Shown in pieces: positions 30,147 to 38,034 of a DNA stretch of 64,000 nt. The DNA is taken from contig NZ_CP065856.1 in assembly GCF_016065055.1 (NCBI RefSeq), positions 3,595,836-3,659,835 of the forward strand, read 5' to 3'. The notes beneath the pieces were generated by a model. The model was not told where the DNA came from and did no database searches. It saw only the letters and a program-made list of their open reading frames with translations. This DNA is from Halosimplex litoreum (GTDB taxonomy: Archaea > Halobacteriota > Halobacteria > Halobacteriales > Haloarculaceae). Each line of letters starts with the position of its first letter. Position 1 is the first letter of the stretch. A program made the position numbers and the translations under genes.

Positions 30147-31970
30147 CTAGTAGCTGCGTTCCTTGGGCTCGTACTCCTTCTCGGCTTCGAGGAGCACGGG
30201 CTTGTAGTACAGCTCGGGGTTGCCGTCGTTCCAGGCGAGCATGGTGTGTTTGAGCCACTCCTCGTCCCGGCGCTCCTGATACTGCTCGCGCCAGTGGGCC
30301 CCGCGGAACTCCTCGCGTGCGAGGGCGCCGACCGCGATGGCTTCGGCGATGTCGATGATGTTGCGGGTCTCCATCGTGTGCATCAGGTCGGTGTTGTAGG
30401 TGCGCGAGGGGTCCGAGGCGGCGACGTGCTGGTAGCGCTCGCGCGCCTCGCGGATGTCGTCCAGCGCCTCTACGAGGTTGTCCTCGCGGCGGAAGACGTT
30501 GACGTTGGCCGTCATCGTCTGCTGGATGTCCTCGCGGACCTGCGCGTGGTTGACGCCCTCGTCTTCGAGGAGGCGGTCGACCCGTTCTTCCTGGCGCTGG
30601 ACTTCGGCGTCGACGACCGTCCCGGCGTCGATCGCCGCGCCGTCCGCGGCGACACTCCGGTTACCGGCGTCGACGGCGCCGATCTCGACTTCCTCGGAGA
30701 GGTCGCCGGCCTCGCTCTTGGCCGAGGGACCCGTCGATATCTCGGCCTCTTTCATGTCGCCGCCCGCGGCGTGCTTGCCGGCGCGGGCGCCGAACACGAG
30801 CAGTTCGGGCAGGGCGTTGCCGCCGAGGCGGTTGGCCCCGTGCAGCGAGACGCAGGCGGTCTCGCCGGCCGCGTAGAGGCCGTCGATGCAGGTGTGGCCG
30901 TTCTCGTCGCACTCGACGCCGCCCATCTGGTAGTGCTGGCCGGGTTTGACCGGCATCGGCTCGTCGAGGCCGTCGACGCCCTCGAAGTCCTCCGCGAGGT
31001 GGAGGATGTTCTCGAGGCGGTCGAGGATACGCTCCTCACCGAGGTGACGCATGTCGAGGTGGACGTACTCGTCCTCGATACCGCGGCCCTCGTTGACCTC
31101 CGTCAGTTCGGCCCGCGAGACCACGTCGCGGGAGGCGAGTTCGCCGTCGTTGTTCGCGTAGCCGTACTCGAACATCAGCCGCTCCTCCTCGTCGTTGTAG
31201 AGGATGCCGCCCTCACCGCGGACCCCCTCGGAGATCAGAACCCCGGTAGAGGGCAGCGTCGTCGGGTGGAACTGGACGAACTCCATGTCCTCCAGCGGGA
31301 CGCCCGCGCGGTAGGCCATCGCGTAGCCGTCGCCGGTGTTGGCGACGGCGTTGGTGGTGTGGTCGAACACCTGGCCGGGGCCGCCGGTGGCGAGGATGAC
31401 GCCGTTGGTGGCGCGGTAGCCCTGGATCTCGCCGCTGGCGATGTCGTAGGCGACGACGCCGTGACACTCGCGGTCCTCGACGTCGTCGTGGTCGGTCACC
31501 GCCAGGTCGAGTACCTGCTGTTCCTCGTAGACGGTGATACCCCGTTTGACGACCTGCTCGTACATCGTGTGGAGCAGGTGGTGGCCGGTCTCGGCGCCGG
31601 CGTAGGTCGTGCGGGGGTGGCTGAGGCCGCCGAACGGTCGCTGGGAGACGGTGCCGTCCTCCTCGCGGGAGAAGGGCATCCCCCAGTGTTCGAGCTGGAT
31701 GACCTCGTCCGGAGCGTCCTGAGCGAAGGTCTCGACCGCGGGGGCGTCCCCGAGGTAGTCCGAGCCCTTCATCGTGTCGTAGGCGTGTAGCTCCCAGGAG
31801 TCCTCCGGGTGCAGAGCGGCGTTGATGCCGCCCTCGGCCGCCCCGGTGTGGCTCCGGACGGGGTGGAGCTTCGTGACCATCGCCACGTCCGCTCCCTCTT
31901 CGTGTGCCGCGATCGCCGCGCGCAGGCCTGCGCCGCCCGCGCCGACGACGAGTACGTCGTGTTCGTGCAT
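30147..31970 (-). CDS. sdhA: Succinate dehydrogenase flavoprotein subunit
   Basis: A 607-residue subunit oxidising succinate to fumarate. It begins MHEHDVLVVGAGGAGLRAAI (FAD-binding GxGxxG) and contains RSHTGAAEGGINAA around the covalent-flavin His, the catalytic HxxxT-type region QFHPTTLPSTG, and HGANRLGGNALPEL. ATG 31970 is chosen; a longer frame upstream belongs to sdhB in another reading. It is the last gene of the leftward sdhCDBA operon, 2 bp after sdhB. Residues about 440-500 include an Asp/Ala-rich insertion common in halophiles. Confidence 0.96.
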   Translation of the reverse strand: MHEHDVLVVGAGGAGLRAAIAAHEEGADVAMVTKLHPVRSHTGAAEGGINAALHPEDSWELHAYDTMKGSDYLGDAPAVETFAQDAPDEVIQLEHWGMPFSREEDGTVSQRPFGGLSHPRTTYAGAETGHHLLHTMYEQVVKRGITVYEEQQVLDLAVTDHDDVEDRECHGVVAYDIASGEIQGYRATNGVILATGGPGQVFDHTTNAVANTGDGYAMAYRAGVPLEDMEFVQFHPTTLPSTGVLISEGVRGEGGILYNDEEERLMFEYGYANNDGELASRDVVSRAELTEVNEGRGIEDEYVHLDMRHLGEERILDRLENILHLAEDFEGVDGLDEPMPVKPGQHYQMGGVECDENGHTCIDGLYAAGETACVSLHGANRLGGNALPELLVFGARAGKHAAGGDMKEAEISTGPSAKSEAGDLSEEVEIGAVDAGNRSVAADGAAIDAGTVVDAEVQRQEERVDRLLEDEGVNHAQVREDIQQTMTANVNVFRREDNLVEALDDIREARERYQHVAASDPSRTYNTDLMHTMETRNIIDIAEAIAVGALAREEFRGAHWREQYQERRDEEWLKHTMLAWNDGNPELYYKPVLLEAEKEYEPKERSY

Positions 31971-31972
31971 GG

Positions 31973-32863
31973 TTACCAGAATTTGAGGTTCGACTTGACT
32001 GCTTCGCGCTTCAGCTCCTGGATGTGCTCGGTCAGCGGGATGTCCTTCGGGCACACCTCGGTGCAGGAGAACTGGGTCTGACAGCGCCAGACGCCGTGTT
32101 CCTGCTCGATGATCTCCAGTCGGTCTTCCTTCTGGATCTCGCCTTCCCGCTCGTCCATCGCGAACCGGTACGCCTTGTTGATGGCCGCCGGGCCGAGATA
32201 CTCGTTGTCTCCCGCCGCGATGTTACACGAGGACATGCAGGCGCCACACCAGATACACCGCGTGGACATCTTGACCTTCTCGCGGTTCTCGGGGGACTGG
32301 CGCTGCTCCTCGCGCTCGCCCTCCGGGAGCTCGTCGGGCTGGAAGTACGGCTCGACGGCCTCCATCTGCTCGTAGAAGTGCTCCATGTCCACGACCAGGT
32401 CCTTCACCACGTCCTGGTGGGGGAGCGGCTCGATGCGAACCGGTCCTTCGAGGTCGGCCATCTGGGTCTTGCACCCGAGTCGTTGCTGGCCGTTGACGAA
32501 CAGCGCGTCGGAGCCACAGACCGCCTGTCGGCAGGAGTGGCGGAAGGTCAGCGACGAGTCGTAGTGGTCCCGAGCGTAGATCAGCGCGTCGAGGACGGTC
32601 ATCCCCTTGAAGAAGGGGACCGAGAAGTCGTCGAAGCGCGGCTCGGACTTGCCCTCGACCTCCGGGTCGTAGCGGAACACCTTGATCTGGACGGTGTCGT
32701 CGGCGTCCCGGACCTCCTCGCGGGCCTGCTCCTCGCGTTCGCGGGCTTCGGCGCGGGCCTTCTTCTCCGAGAGGCGCCGTTCCTGGGGCGACTGCTCGGC
32801 CGGTTCGGCCGTCTCGGCCTCGGTCTGCTCTTCTGTCTGCTCTTGTTCGATTTGTGTGCTCAT
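31973..32863 (-). CDS. sdhB: Succinate dehydrogenase iron-sulfur subunit
   Basis: A 296-residue electron-transfer subunit. A 45-residue Glu/Gln-rich N-terminal extension precedes the ferredoxin domain. The [2Fe-2S] ligands are in CRQAVCGSDALFVNG...LGC, where one ligand position is Asp as in E. coli SdhB. CIWCGACMSSC binds the [4Fe-4S] and CQTQFSC...CPKDIP the [3Fe-4S] cluster. It passes electrons from SdhA to quinone at SdhCD. Its ATG overlaps the sdhD stop (ATGA), and the stop is 2 bp before sdhA. Confidence 0.96.
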   Translation of the reverse strand: MSTQIEQEQTEEQTEAETAEPAEQSPQERRLSEKKARAEAREREEQAREEVRDADDTVQIKVFRYDPEVEGKSEPRFDDFSVPFFKGMTVLDALIYARDHYDSSLTFRHSCRQAVCGSDALFVNGQQRLGCKTQMADLEGPVRIEPLPHQDVVKDLVVDMEHFYEQMEAVEPYFQPDELPEGEREEQRQSPENREKVKMSTRCIWCGACMSSCNIAAGDNEYLGPAAINKAYRFAMDEREGEIQKEDRLEIIEQEHGVWRCQTQFSCTEVCPKDIPLTEHIQELKREAVKSNLKFW

Positions 32864-33225
32864 AGTAGGTCGGTCATCGCGAGTGCCACGCGGGTTCCCT
32901 GGACGATCAGTGCTATGCTCGCCAGCGTCAAAACGGCCCCGACTGCCGTCTTGCGAGTGCCGCTCAGGCCCTGATTGACGAGGGCGTTGTAGACGCCGTT
33001 GACGCCGTGGAAGGTCGCGGTGACGAGGAACAGCCACATCGTCGCGAAGTAGCCGACCTGGCTCATCCGCGCCTCGGTGCCGGCGAAGGTGATCTCGGCG
33101 GCGTGGTTGACGAAGTGCAGCAGGAAGAAGTGGAAGGCGAGAACCCCGACCAGGAAGACCGCCGTCAGTCGCTGGAAGAGCCACTTGACGCCGCCGCGCT
33201 CGAACGACGAGTAGTGCTGTGCCAT
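32860..33225 (-). CDS. sdhD: Succinate dehydrogenase membrane anchor subunit D
   Basis: A 121-residue membrane subunit with three helices (about 17-38, 58-78, 90-115). It contains FHFFLLHFVNHAAE in helix 1 and TATFHGVNGVYN in helix 2, with His residues placed to help bind haem or quinone. It follows sdhC by 3 bp and overlaps sdhB by 4 bp. Together with SdhC it anchors the SdhAB catalytic head on the cytoplasmic face. Confidence 0.88.
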   Translation of the reverse strand: MAQHYSSFERGGVKWLFQRLTAVFLVGVLAFHFFLLHFVNHAAEITFAGTEARMSQVGYFATMWLFLVTATFHGVNGVYNALVNQGLSGTRKTAVGAVLTLASIALIVQGTRVALAMTDLL

Positions 33226-33228
33226 GAG

Positions 33229-33618
33229 TTACACCCCCGCGAGGAACGTCGGCACGCTCGCGACGACGATGGCGGCCGTCACGACGAGCGACGCGTAGAA
33301 GCTCTTGTCCTGATTTTCGAGTCCGAACCCGAGGTCGACGAACAGCAGCCGAACCCCGTTGAGGATGTGGAAGACGGCCACCGACAGGAGGCCGACCTCC
33401 AGCACACGGACGATCAGCAGTTCTTCCAGTCCCTGGAGCGTGTTCGTGTACAGCACCTCGCCACCCGTCGCGGTGCTCAACACGGCGATATGCGTAAAGA
33501 GGTAGCCGACGAGCACCCAACCGGTGAACTTGTGGAAGATCCAGGCCCACATGCCCGGCTGGAACTCCCGCCACCGGCCGAAATCCTCGACCGCTCCGCG
33601 GTCGTACGTTCCGCTCAT
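33229..33618 (-). CDS. sdhC: Succinate dehydrogenase cytochrome b subunit
   Basis: A 129-residue membrane protein. [20 protein letters not shown] leads into helix 1, with the HKxTG quinone/haem motif of SdhC. The second helix has a His in LFTHIAV and the third has [12 protein letters not shown]. It is the first gene of the sdhCDBA operon. A TATA-like box about 30 nt before its ATG implies a leaderless transcript. Confidence 0.92.
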
Positions 33619-33818: not shown

Positions 33819-34865
33819 TCACTCGGCGACGGTGGGCGACGTCGGGTCCCGTGGCGAACCCGTCCCGTCGCTGCGTTCGATCGCGTCGAGCGTGTCGCCG
33901 TCGAGTTTGACGAGGTGACAGAGCGGATTGCCGGGGTAGACGACGGGGTTCTCGAGGATACCGACGAGCAGTCCAGTGAAGGGCGCCTCGACGTGGGTGC
34001 GTTCGGTCTTGAACGGGTTGGCGATCGTGCAGATCGTCTCGCCCTCGCGGACGACGCCGCCGCGGGCGGCGTGCATATCGACGAGACCGCCCGCGTCGGC
34101 ACGCAGCCACGTCTTCTCGCTGGATCCTTCGACGATCGTCCGCCAGCCGGGCCAGCGGACCCGTTCGGTCGGCAGGATGCCGAACTCGGCGAGGACGCTC
34201 TCGACGCCGACCAGGGCTCGGTCGATGAACTCCCGCTGGAAGCGGTGGGCTTCGCCCATCTCGACGGTGACCGTGGCGGTGCCGGCCTCGCTGGCTTCCC
34301 GGCGGAGCGTCCCTTCGGGGCCCTGTCCGTCGATGATGACGTTCGAGGCGAACGCCTTCGCGACGCGGGCGACCGACGAGTCGGCCATGTCGGCACGGAC
34401 GTGGAGCATGTTCGTCCGGCCGCGGGTGGAGGTGTGCAGGTCCAGCCCCACGTCACAGGGCGCGACGAAGTTGTCGAAGATGCGTCGGGCCATCCGCTTG
34501 GCGCTGGTCGACCCCGCTTTGCCGGGGAACGAGCGATTCAGGTCGCGGTCGTAGACGGGGAGGTAGCGCTCCTGTGCGATGAAGCCGGGCACGTTCAGTA
34601 CGGGGAGACAGATGAGCGTCCCCCGGAGGTCGTCCAGGTCCCACTCGTGGGCGACCTCGCGGACGACCTCGACGCCGTTGAGCTCGTCGCCGTGGGCGGC
34701 GGCGCTGAGGAAGGCGGTGGGTCCGGGCTCTTCCCCGACGACGACCGTCACGGGGATCCTGACGGGGTCGCCGAGGTAGGTCTCGCTGACGGTGTAGCGC
34801 ACGTTTGTCCGTTCACCCGGGTCGACCCGACCGCCGTCGTAGGTGAACGGCTCGGCCTCGTCCAT
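33819..34865 (-). CDS. Succinylglutamate desuccinylase/aspartoacylase-type zinc hydrolase
   Basis: A 348-residue enzyme of the AstE/AspA (M14-like) family. Zinc ligands are in AAAHGDELNG (His and Glu near residues 59-62) and LDLHTSTRGR (His near 143). The catalytic Glu is in VTVEMGEAHRF. A C-terminal biotinyl-like beta domain (VVREGETICTIANPF) is typical of prokaryotic forms. Family members cleave amide bonds of acylated amino acids or trim C-terminal amino acids. It is divergent from the RimK-RimB fusion with a 145-bp shared promoter region, suggesting opposite actions on the same product. Confidence 0.85.
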   Translation of the reverse strand: MDEAEPFTYDGGRVDPGERTNVRYTVSETYLGDPVRIPVTVVVGEEPGPTAFLSAAAHGDELNGVEVVREVAHEWDLDDLRGTLICLPVLNVPGFIAQERYLPVYDRDLNRSFPGKAGSTSAKRMARRIFDNFVAPCDVGLDLHTSTRGRTNMLHVRADMADSSVARVAKAFASNVIIDGQGPEGTLRREASEAGTATVTVEMGEAHRFQREFIDRALVGVESVLAEFGILPTERVRWPGWRTIVEGSSEKTWLRADAGGLVDMHAARGGVVREGETICTIANPFKTERTHVEAPFTGLLVGILENPVVYPGNPLCHLVKLDGDTLDAIERSDGTGSPRDPTSPTVAE

Positions 34866-35010
34866 ACCGTCTCCAGCGCCCGGGGGTTGAAACGTGTGGC
34901 GACCCGCGGAGCGATTCCGGTTGGGTGAACGTTCCGATTCGGCGTCAAATGGCCTCGTGCGGCCGGCTCGCGACCGTTAGTACTTTCGGCCGCCCGGGCG
35001 ATTACGGGAT

Positions 35011-36354
35011 ATGACGACTTCTGACTCGGTTTCGGTGGGGGTGTTGAGCCTGCACAACAGCAAGGAGACGAAAGCGATCCTCAACGCCGTCGACGCGCTG
35101 GGCCACCACCCCGAGTGGCTACGCCGGGAGAACACGACGATACGCGTCGAGGGGTCGGAGCCGAAACTCGAACCCGACGTAGACGTGATCGCCAACCGAC
35201 TCCTCCTGTCGAAGTCGACCGAACCCTGCGAGGAGATGGGGCTGGCCAACACCTTCGAACAGTTCGTCCCGATGCTCAACGAACCGGCGAAGACGCTCAC
35301 GTCGATGCACAAGGTGGCCTCGGCGGTCGCGCTCTCGGAGGCCGACGTGCAGGTACCCGACGCCCTGCTCGCCCTGTCTTCCGACCGGCTGAACTTCGAA
35401 CGCGAGCAGTTCGGCGAGGAAGCGGTGTACAAGACCGCCATCGGAACCAACGGCGGCGGCACGTGGAAGGTCGACGCCACCGAGCGGGTCAACGCCCGCG
35501 TCGGCAACCGCTACGCGTTCCTCCAGAAGCTGCTCGACCGGGGTGACGTGCCGACGCGCGACCTCCGCGTCTACGTCGTCGGCGGCGAGGTCGTCGGCTC
35601 GATGTTCCGCTACGCGCCCGACGACGAGTGGCGGACCAACGTCGCCCTGGGCGGCCGCGTCGAGGACGCCGCCGGCGAAGTCGACGACGCAGTCATCGAG
35701 ACGGCACGGACGGCGGTCGAGGCCGTCGGTCTGGACTACGCCGGCGTCGACCTCATGGAGGGTGAAGACGGCTGGTACGTCCTCGAAGTCAACCCCACCG
35801 CGGGCTTCAAGGGCCTGTTCGACGCGACCGGGACGAGCCCGGCCCCCTACATCGCCCAGCGAGCCATCGAGCGCGCCGGCGGCAGCGTCGACCGCGACCG
35901 GGTCGAGGAGCTGTCGGGCCTCCTCGACGACTCGGTGCCCGCCTGCAAACCGCCCTCTGTCAACTCCGGGGCCGCCGACTCGCTCGTCATCGGCTACACC
36001 GAGGAAGTCCTGATCAGCGGGACGAAAGGCTCGGAGTCGGTGGTCGCCAAGTCCGACACCGGCGCGACCCGAACCAGCATCGATACCCGTCTCGCCGCCG
36101 ACATCGGTGCCGGCCCGATCAAGTCGATCACGAAGGTCCGCTCGGGCTCGAACAAGTCCTCGAAGAGTCGTCCGCTCGTCGACGTGGTCGTCGGCGTCGG
36201 CGGCACCCGCCACACCGTCACCGCCAGCGTCGAGGACCGCAGCCACATGAACTACCCCGTCATCCTCGGCCGCGACATCCTCGGCGACTACCAGGTCGAC
36301 GTCTCCCGGCAGGCCGACAACGAGTCCGACTCCGAGATCGAATCAGAGGAGTAG
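35011..36354 (+). CDS. RimK-type ATP-grasp amino-acid ligase fused to a RimB-type retropepsin-like domain
   Basis: A 447-residue fusion. Residues about 1-300 are a RimK-like ATP-grasp ligase: SMHKVASAVALSEADVQVPD, a Gly-rich loop TNGGGTWKVD, RVYVVGGEVVGSMFR, and metal-binding YVLEVNPTAGFKG. Residues about 325-430 match the RimB/DUF785 domain: VVAKSDTGATRTSID with the aspartyl-protease-like DTGA, then RPLVDVVVGVGGTRHT and YPVILGRDIL. Bacterial RimK adds glutamates to ribosomal S6 and RimB removes them. Haloarchaea lack S6, so the target here is different and unknown (F420 or another protein are options). An acidic tail ends it. Confidence 0.88.
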   Translation: MTTSDSVSVGVLSLHNSKETKAILNAVDALGHHPEWLRRENTTIRVEGSEPKLEPDVDVIANRLLLSKSTEPCEEMGLANTFEQFVPMLNEPAKTLTSMHKVASAVALSEADVQVPDALLALSSDRLNFEREQFGEEAVYKTAIGTNGGGTWKVDATERVNARVGNRYAFLQKLLDRGDVPTRDLRVYVVGGEVVGSMFRYAPDDEWRTNVALGGRVEDAAGEVDDAVIETARTAVEAVGLDYAGVDLMEGEDGWYVLEVNPTAGFKGLFDATGTSPAPYIAQRAIERAGGSVDRDRVEELSGLLDDSVPACKPPSVNSGAADSLVIGYTEEVLISGTKGSESVVAKSDTGATRTSIDTRLAADIGAGPIKSITKVRSGSNKSSKSRPLVDVVVGVGGTRHTVTASVEDRSHMNYPVILGRDILGDYQVDVSRQADNESDSEIESEE

Positions 36355-36364
36355 ACGCGCGTCT

Positions 36365-36712
36365 TCAGTCTTCGTTCCCGTCCGCGATCCGCTCCGCCAG
36401 CGACCGCGCCGTCGCCACGCGCTCGTCGGCGTCCTCGTCGCCGGTCCCGTCGACGTTCGAGAGGAGATCCGCCACGTGGCCGACCCGTTCGCGGACGGTC
36501 GCCCTCGCGCCCTCGTCGTCCGCGTCGCTCGCCAAGGCCGCGGCGTCGCCGGCGACCGCCTGCGCCTCGCCGACCCACCGGCTCGCCGTCCGGTCGACGG
36601 GTCGTTCCTCGGTCGCTTCGAGTTTGGCGTGGAGCCGTTCGACGCGTTCGGCGAGCGAGTCGCCCGCGACCTCGGTGTCGCCCTCACCGCGGCCGTCGGT
36701 GTCGTCACCCAC
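36365..36712 (-). CDS. Helical acidic protein, unknown
   Basis: A 115-residue, Ala/Asp/Glu-rich protein predicted almost entirely helical. It contains SLAERVERLHAKLEATEERP and a pattern of Leu/Val every three to four residues (VGHVADLLSN, RSLAERIAD) that suggests coiled-coil or helical-bundle packing. No catalytic motif or membrane segment is seen. It ends the cluster with the glycosylase gene, 3 bp downstream of the latter on the same strand, so the two are co-transcribed. Confidence 0.62.
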   Translation of the reverse strand: MGDDTDGRGEGDTEVAGDSLAERVERLHAKLEATEERPVDRTASRWVGEAQAVAGDAAALASDADDEGARATVRERVGHVADLLSNVDGTGDEDADERVATARSLAERIADGNED

Positions 36713-36715
36713 GGT

Positions 36716-37294
36716 TCACCCCTCCACCGCGCGCCAGAGGTACAGGCTGGCGTAGCTCCGGTAGGGAGCCCACCGCTCGGCGGCGTCGGTCATCTCGGCG
36801 CGAGTCATATCGGCGTCGAACAGCCGGTCCATCCCCTCACAGATGCCCAGGTCGCCGACCGGAAACACGTCCTCACGACCGAGCCCGAACAGCAGGAACA
36901 TGTCGGCGGTCCACGGGCCGACCCCGTGGACGTCGGTCAGCTCGGCCCTGACCGCGTCGTCGCTCGTGTCGGCGAAGGTGTCTCGATCCCACTCGTGGGT
37001 CAGGAACGCGTTCGCCGCGCTCTTGGCGTAGTCGGCCTTCGCCTCGGAGAGTCCGGCGTCGTGGAGTTCGGCGTGGTCGGCCTCGACGACGGATTCGGGG
37101 GTCACCTCGACCGCGTCGAACAGCCGCTCGCGGATGGCCGCGGCGGCGTCCATCGACACCTGCTGGCGGATCAGCGAGACGACCAGCCGCTCGTACAGAT
37201 CGTCGGCCGGCTCGATCGAGACGGGGCCGTGCTCGTCGACGACCGGCCCGAGCACCTGGTCGTCGGCGAGTTCCTCGATAGGGTCCGCTGTCAT
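36716..37294 (-). CDS. DNA-3-methyladenine glycosylase (AlkA-like, HhH-GPD)
   Basis: A 192-residue base-excision repair enzyme. LIRQQVSMDAAAAIRERLF is the family's early helix. The helix-hairpin-helix DVHGVGPWTADMFLLFGLGR is followed by VFPVGDLGI, whose Asp is the catalytic base of HhH-GPD enzymes. It lacks the N-terminal TBP-like domain of E. coli AlkA, like many archaeal and short bacterial forms. ATG 37294 is used; the upstream extension is Arg/Pro-rich. It removes alkylated purines. It is followed 3 bp later by a helical protein. Confidence 0.88.
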   Translation of the reverse strand: MTADPIEELADDQVLGPVVDEHGPVSIEPADDLYERLVVSLIRQQVSMDAAAAIRERLFDAVEVTPESVVEADHAELHDAGLSEAKADYAKSAANAFLTHEWDRDTFADTSDDAVRAELTDVHGVGPWTADMFLLFGLGREDVFPVGDLGICEGMDRLFDADMTRAEMTDAAERWAPYRSYASLYLWRAVEG

Positions 37295-37350
37295 CGCTAG
37301 AACGTCGGGCTCGGGACGGCATGGGGGTTTCGGCCCGACTCGAGCGCCAC

Positions 37351-38034
37351 TCAGCTCGCGCCCGCGGCGCCGCAACAGGCCGGCGGCTCCGGCGGGCCCG
37401 CCGTCTCGCCGTCCGGGTCGTCGGTCGACTCGTCGTCCGGGTCGGCGGTCGTCTCCGGGTCGACCGCGGTGGGCTCGCTGGCCTCGTCCGCGGATTCGAC
37501 CCCGTTACCGCCGTCGGTTCCGTCGCCGCCGTCGACGACCTTGGCTGGATTGCCGACCACGGTCGCCCCCGGCGGTACGTCGTCGACGACGACCGCACCG
37601 GCGCCGACCGAGGCGTCGTCGCCGACCGTGATGTCGCCCACGAGCGTCGCGTTGGCGCCCAGTGTCACGCGGTCGCCGACGGTCGGGTGCCGTTTGACGG
37701 GACGGGGGTCGTCGCCCCCCAGTGTCACACCGTGGTACATCACCACGTCGTCACCGACCTCCGCCGTCTCGCCGACGACGACGCCCATCCCGTGGTCGAC
37801 GAAGACCCGTCGGCCGAGGTCGGCGCCCGGATGGATCTCGACGCCGGTCAGGAAGCGGGTGAGTTGTGAGATGAGTCTGGCGGCGAAGTGGAACTCGCGG
37901 GTCCACAGCCAGTGGGCCAGCCGATAGGCCCAGACGGCGTGGAGGCCGGCGTAGAGGAGTACTTCGGCGCTGCTCTTCGCGGCGGGGTCGGTCTCGCGGG
38001 CTGTGCGAACGTCCTCGCGGAGTCTGTCGAACAT
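37351..38034 (-). CDS. cysE: Serine O-acetyltransferase
   Basis: A 227-residue enzyme making O-acetylserine for cysteine synthesis. A short N-terminal helical part ([20 protein letters not shown]) precedes the left-handed beta helix with hexapeptide repeats: [21 protein letters not shown], with catalytic Asp-His, then [10 protein letters not shown] and [13 protein letters not shown]. It ends in a 50-residue Asp/Gly/Pro-rich tail with CCGAAGAS, the CC pair being odd and possibly metal-binding. No cysK is adjacent in the window. Confidence 0.9.

Follow-up and report, generated by a model that had tools for sequence, protein, structure and literature searches.

A RimK-RimB fusion protein and its divergent AstE-type neighbor as a putative polyglutamate writer-trimmer module of haloarchaea

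The divergent gene pair described here probably encodes a polyglutamate writer-trimmer module, in which a predicted RimK-like ATP-grasp ligase and a RimB-type retropepsin share a single chain and an AstE/AspA-type hydrolase is the partner. The pair lies within the window, the whole 64,000-nucleotide stretch of DNA that was analyzed, which is part of a 4.16-Mb haloarchaeal genome whose closest named relatives are Halosimplex (89-95% identity). An initial annotation had proposed that one protein joins an ATP-grasp domain to a RimB-like retropepsin carrying DTGA, head to head with a hydrolase gene; both genes were recovered in this arrangement, with Pfam matches to each part. The label of amidohydrolase given to the neighbor was incorrect, as the protein is a zinc hydrolase of the AstE/AspA (carboxypeptidase-like) type and lies outside the amidohydrolase superfamily. 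The features of the locus are as follows.

35011..36354, plus strand: RimK-RimB fusion protein, 447 residues (Pfam, NCBIfam and a 40-sequence alignment)
35311..35838, plus strand: RimK-like ATP-grasp domain, residues 101-276 (PF08443, E 2e-18)
35992..36303, plus strand: RimB-type retropepsin domain, residues 328-431 (PF05618; match to the RloA-type crystal structure 9g59)
36049..36066, plus strand: catalytic motif K347-S-D349-T-G-A, which together with R387 and R410 matches RloA K46/D48/R114/R137
36304..36351, plus strand: variable acidic C-terminal tail ending in Glu-Glu, SRQADNESDSEIESEE, the proposed cis acceptor (tail-end counts)
34866..35010, no strand: divergent intergenic region of 145 bp (median gap 145 bp in 70 relatives)
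33819..34865, minus strand: AstE/AspA-type zinc hydrolase, 348 residues (PF24827, AstE_AspA_cat, E 6e-47)

The fusion and AstE genes start head to head with 145 bp between them, and this intergenic region presumably holds the promoters of both. A sigma-70 promoter scan of the locus returned no match, and none was expected in an archaeon. Downstream of AstE, directly adjoining and in the same orientation, is a succinate dehydrogenase operon (33229-33618 and 30147-33225, minus strand), and of the 47 named loci in which both AstE and sdhC were found, 39 have the two no more than 400 bp apart. Near the 3' end of the fusion gene is an HhH-GPD (AlkA-like) DNA glycosylase gene (36716-37375, minus strand). 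This glycosylase is near the fusion 3' end in 55 of 80 named loci, 20 of these within 400 bp and on the same strand, and it remains by the fusion at loci where AstE has relocated. A 115-residue acidic open reading frame (36365-36712, minus strand) with no Pfam or NCBIfam match separates the two.

The ligase and protease domains of the fusion

The full extent of the ligase module is approximately residues 8-288, within which S13, R63, S67, K141, R186, R208, N210, D247, E259 and N261 are invariant in the aligned fusions. The residues through which Pseudomonas RimK contacts its bound glutamate chain include S68, S7, R8, R64, S14, N262 and R189 (PMC10092738). Within this set, five of the seven contacts are kept, with S7, R64, S68, R189 and N262 corresponding to S13, R63, S67, R186 and N261 of the fusion; R8 is replaced by leucine in all 40 aligned fusions, and S14 has no clear counterpart. 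The HRGG motif that follows FRSN is also altered. Fold, catalytic residues and chain-contact residues place the predicted ligase within the broad RimK family of ATP-grasp enzymes, and the family model rimK_fam (TIGR00768) scores 138.0 bits, slightly below its cut-off of 143.4. Models of individual enzymes score far lower relative to their cut-offs: 46.7 bits against 331 for the RimK S6 ligase equivalog (PRK10446), 42.8 against 300 for CofF, 107.1 against 350 for MptN and 110 against 275.6 for the ArgX/LysX equivalog.

The solved structures nearest to the ligase domain are those of LysX/ArgX and RimK, and a small tree places the domain with ArgX, apart from the clade of bacterial RimK. Over the aligned parts the haloarchaeal domain is ~25-39% identical, compared with 66-77% between Methanosarcina RimK and bacterial RimK. 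That haloarchaea simply acquired a bacterial rimBK gene by transfer was also considered, and rejected on the grounds that the domain order is reversed and that the ligase, unlike that of Methanosarcina, is outside the bacterial RimK clade.

The retropepsin domain has a PF05618 (RimB family) match above the cut-off at residues 369-434 (E 2e-9), and its DTGA occupies residues 349-352. A structural model of Pseudomonas RloA has K46, R114 and R137 binding polyglutamate around the catalytic D48, and the R114A and R137A substitutions had the strongest effects on cleavage (PMC12239564). K46, D48, R114 and R137 correspond to K347, D349, R387 and R410 of the fusion, all invariant in 40 of 40 aligned sequences; the 23-residue spacing between the two arginines is the same in both proteins, and the segment from the catalytic aspartate to the first arginine is shorter in the fusion than in RloA. 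The K.DTG signature is present in 80 of 80 fusions. With a lysine two positions before the aspartate, DTGA and two arginines, the putative protease carries the marks of the RimB/RloA family. An AlphaFold model of the fusion has a mean pLDDT of 57.6 and is poor over the protease domain and tail; its Foldseek matches confirm the ATP-grasp part only.

Elsewhere, a Natrinema plasmid encodes an unfused RimB-like protein (L067, 3980-4354), annotated as a 'glutaminyl transferase', which keeps the K/D/R/R signature and ends in NAD and not in Glu-Glu. Three methanogen proteins of ~190 residues (L044, 1345-1917; L051, 1366-1962; L056, 1360-1938) have weak PF05618 matches at positions 25-138; they have a HELEHLE-like motif and no DTG, and the model has probably picked up an unrelated family in them.

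The hydrolase partner and the distribution of the pair

The AstE-type protein has the motifs HGDE (58-61), DLNR (108-111), DLHT and EMG as well as H144, so that the zinc and substrate motifs of this family are intact. By analogy with the family, H58, E61 and H144 are the predicted zinc ligands and E202 the predicted catalytic glutamate. Models of named enzymes again score low, at 21.8 bits against 305.65 for AstE, 32.8 against 180 for AspA and 100.2 against 402.7 for DoeB. Judged by these profile scores, all well below cut-off, neither the fusion nor the hydrolase is a known equivalog.

In Methanosarcinaceae the genes for RimB, RimK and AstE directly follow one another, and plasmids of Salinivibrio, V. 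europaeus, V. nigripulchritudo, Phaeobacter and Acaryochloris likewise have the three in a row, in varying order. The haloarchaeal AstE scores 170-205 bits to the AstE proteins of these operons, compared with 125 bits to the paralogue in its own genome. On bacterial plasmids, its best relatives (35-37% identity) are beside rimK in every record with readable surroundings, namely the five bacteria just listed and, by adjacent coordinates, Photobacterium DA100; the V. parahaemolyticus match (split in two pieces) and the Photobacterium GJ3 match lie in stretches without informative annotation. Because its nearest bacterial relatives are RimK-operon AstE proteins, the hydrolase is by these comparisons a third component of a RimK-RimB kit, and not a chance neighbor. 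Membership of this subfamily strengthens the earlier suggestion that hydrolase and fusion are linked. The companion suggestion, of writer and trimmer on one chain, is well supported, by domain content, the invariant polyglutamate-handling residues and the conserved three-part gene set of other phyla; the two activities are predicted.

Genes for mechanosensitive channels, cation/proton antiporters, Mg/K transport and diadenylate cyclase are found near the AstE genes of RimK operons, and also near an AstE of a second haloarchaeal type; this ion-transport pattern was not seen in two other plasmid contexts. At the window locus no ion-transport neighbors were found, the neighbor being the succinate dehydrogenase operon. 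The genomic context in other organisms, together with the failure of RloA mutants in hypoosmotic medium (PMC12239564), gives a weak link to ion or osmotic homeostasis. The second haloarchaeal type itself (~56% identical, plasmid-borne; L170, 3483-4547, and L180, 3489-4556) is not accompanied by the fusion. It has cation/proton antiporters as neighbors, joined in one case by a mechanosensitive channel and a diadenylate cyclase and in one case by TrkA-type genes.

We surveyed 242 Halobacteria genomes, taking E < 1e-100 for presence of the fusion and E < 1e-140 for presence of the AstE partner. Both genes are present in 221 genomes and neither in 18; three have AstE only, and none has the fusion only. 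The head-to-head arrangement recurs, with the two genes adjacent in 67 of 80 named loci, and a fusion in 221 of 242 genomes with an adjacent divergent partner at this frequency is not due to chance. Among genomes with AstE only, G110 retains a 67-residue N-terminal remnant of the fusion, and in G184 the fusion is reduced to a 37-residue C-terminal match beside AstE. Losses of the pair are spread over at least six genera whose sister species retain it, and are therefore recurrent. Since the genes are usually adjacent, their joint loss can be a single deletion, as in G114, where the AstE end alone survives next to sdhC; this weakens co-loss as a proof of function. In other genomes, of which G045 and G213 are examples, the two genes are far apart and both are retained. 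The idea that the pair disappeared along with respiration, or with the locus as a whole, was rejected, as all genomes without the pair have succinate dehydrogenase. The association between fusion and AstE is real, and its weight as functional evidence is moderate.

The Glu-Glu tail and the acceptor

Bacterial RimK acts on ribosomal protein S6, which the initial annotation held to be absent in archaea; a profile search agreed, with PF01250 found in neither the window's own genome nor 27 relatives. The acceptor in this organism must then differ from the bacterial one. It had earlier been left nameless, a gap for which there is now a concrete candidate, the conserved, S6-like Glu-Glu end of the fusion's own C terminus. 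We put this tail forward as the leading candidate acceptor, a tentative assignment drawn from tail comparisons and held at well short of even confidence.

The tail that follows the last protease strand is 8-29 residues long and poorly conserved. Of the 80 fusions at the named loci, 77 have Glu as the final residue and 67 have Glu-Glu as the final pair, and a second set, chosen in another way but overlapping with the first, has a final Glu in 37 of 38; these counts, like those that follow, are of related proteins and not of independent events, and the figures are not formal probabilities. The three fusions with another final residue have five or six consecutive Glu at an internal position. In 68 distinct tails, the last residue is Glu in 65 and the last two are Glu-Glu in 55; shuffling each tail gave on average 20.7 and 6.0, and at most 36 and 16, in 20,000 trials. 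Taking one representative per genus or lineage, the ends are Glu in 25 of 26 and Glu-Glu in 21 of 26. Plasmid paralogues of the fusion (~49-63% identity) end in Glu-Glu in six of the seven with a full-length frame. Two plasmid paralogues in which one half looks degenerate keep this end: in one the DTGA is broken (L174, 2480-3805), and in the other the glycine-rich loop of the ATP-grasp domain is altered (L175, 2501-3808).

The textbook acceptor of RimK, S6 of E. coli, has the C terminus ...AGDSEE, and the LysW encoded beside ArgX in this same genome ends in EDWGE, so that a protein whose last residue is glutamate is already in use by the RimK family here. No Glu-Glu end was found in the unfused Methanosarcina and bacterial RimK and RimB proteins compared, and a cis acceptor would thus be a haloarchaeal novelty. 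RimB cleavage requires five or more Glu (PMC11957791), so a Glu-Glu end would be too short for cutting until extended.

In the mechanism that we propose, the ATP-grasp domain would ligate L-glutamate stepwise onto a C-terminal glutamate acceptor, and the fused retropepsin, acting as a dimer, would trim the chain once it reaches some five to six or more Glu, an activity predicted from RimB and RloA. The AstE-like hydrolase from the divergent gene may then remove the last residues or recycle the freed glutamate peptides. The flexible Glu-Glu tail of the fusion would be the acceptor, modified in cis or between subunits. Several observations weigh against a writer-trimmer function: the ligase is outside the RimK clade and matches no equivalog, the counterpart of R8 is lost and the HRGG motif is changed, and a bacterial RimBK hybrid was proteolytically active and did not glutamylate RpsF (PMC11957791). 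By analogy with glycogenin, the fusion could be a self-primed polyglutamate enzyme, in which the ligase extends its own tail, the protease cuts the chain off and AstE returns the glutamate; writer, trimmer and acceptor would then be one chain, in a salt- or stress-linked glutamate-polymer cycle across haloarchaea. This extension of the proposal is possible, if on the doubtful side.

Rather unlikely, in our estimation, is that the tail serves as an autoinhibitory pseudosubstrate or as a halophilic solubility tail, with another C-terminal-Glu protein as the true acceptor in trans. Haloarchaeal proteins are acidic, bacterial RimK modifies S6 in trans (PMC11957791), and LysW, with its C-terminal Glu, is likewise an acceptor in trans. 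The specificity of the ends weighs against this reading: Glu ends ~14% and Glu-Glu ~2% of the other predicted proteins of these loci, the partner AstE ends in Glu in 9 of 71 cases and in Glu-Glu in 1 of 71, and the enrichment is confined to the last two tail positions (96% and 85% Glu, versus 35-54% at positions -3 to -8).

The fusion might instead make free poly-alpha-glutamate, as an osmolyte or glutamate store with no protein acceptor, from which AstE returns glutamate. Pseudomonas RimK does make free polyglutamate, with stimulation by RimB (PMC11957791), RloA mutants fail in hypoosmotic medium (PMC12239564), and the neighbors seen elsewhere (mechanosensitive channels, cation/proton antiporters, TrkA, diadenylate cyclase) fit such a role. 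We consider this reading unlikely, as it leaves the conserved Glu-Glu tail unexplained and the window locus is without ion-transport neighbors; synthesis of free polyglutamate is nevertheless compatible with the self-primed cycle.

Glutamylation of a small molecule such as F420, folate or another cofactor, with the protease domain trimming or regulating, is quite improbable. MptN and CofF are RimK-family cofactor enzymes, and the MptN score of 107 bits is near that of rimK_fam (138). Against this, the CofF model reaches only 43 bits, cofactor genes were not seen near the locus, and the polyglutamate-binding residues of the retropepsin are conserved. All 21 genomes without the fusion carry the cofE gene, and F420 synthesis thus does not depend on the fusion; a plain F420 ligase, which the initial annotation had named as the case that would overturn its proposal, is disfavored and was rejected, cofE not following the fusion and the CofF score being poor. 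That the fusion is an additional ArgX/LysX-type ligase for amino-group carriers, with LysW as its substrate, is very improbable: the nearest solved structures include LysX/ArgX and the domain groups with ArgX, but a dedicated ArgX (L163) with its own LysW and ArgC is encoded elsewhere in the genome, the fusion has a RimK-like WRTN and not the WLTN of ArgX, and an attached polyglutamate protease would be without a role.

Relation to known systems

The predicted writer-trimmer module resembles Pseudomonas RimK/RimB, which polyglutamylates RpsF (PMC11957791, PMC7343187), in pairing an ATP-grasp glutamate ligase with a polyglutamate-specific retropepsin that has a catalytic DTG and conserved basic substrate-binding residues. 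In Pseudomonas the genes are separate, RimA and c-di-GMP exert control, the acceptor is S6 (absent in the haloarchaeon), the ligase belongs to another branch of the RimK family, and the enzymes compared have no Glu-Glu tail. The bacterial RimBK hybrid (Desulfotalea psychrophila DP2392; PMC11957791) also has protease and ligase on one chain; there RimB comes first, the opposite domain order, and the published survey covered bacteria only (PMC11957791). The hybrid of Aureibacter (L064) ends in ...VRTND, not Glu-Glu. The operons of Methanosarcinaceae, Vibrionaceae, Phaeobacter and Acaryochloris have the same three parts and the same AstE subfamily, but are unfused, with a bacterial-type RimK (65-77% identical between groups) that has a basic C terminus. 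RloABC of Pseudomonas aeruginosa similarly places a retropepsin with the K/D/R/R signature beside an ATP-grasp gene; its protease is secreted, its partner RloB is a transmembrane protein, and there is no AstE among the three genes (PMC12239564). ArgX/LysX with LysW provides the closest solved ligase structures and an acceptor protein ending in Glu, and differs in adding a single amino acid, in having no protease and in its biosynthetic role. Eukaryotic tubulin polyglutamylation offers an analogy, in which ATP-dependent writers (TTLL ligases) are opposed by hydrolases (CCP deglutamylases); the ligase branch, the proteases and the acceptor, tubulin, are different.

The RimK-RimB cycle and the bacterial hybrids are already published. 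In the searched literature, which covered few subscription papers, we found no description of the archaeal fusion, its near-universality in Halobacteria, AstE as a third component or the Glu-Glu tail. By synteny, HVO_2813 is probably the Haloferax volcanii fusion and HVO_2812 its AstE; no paper describing these likely counterparts was found in the same literature. If the proposal is true, archaea would possess a reversible C-terminal polyglutamylation that is nearly universal in one class and independent of S6, and a role of RimK/RimB without S6 would become testable in Haloferax, with a candidate acceptor already named.
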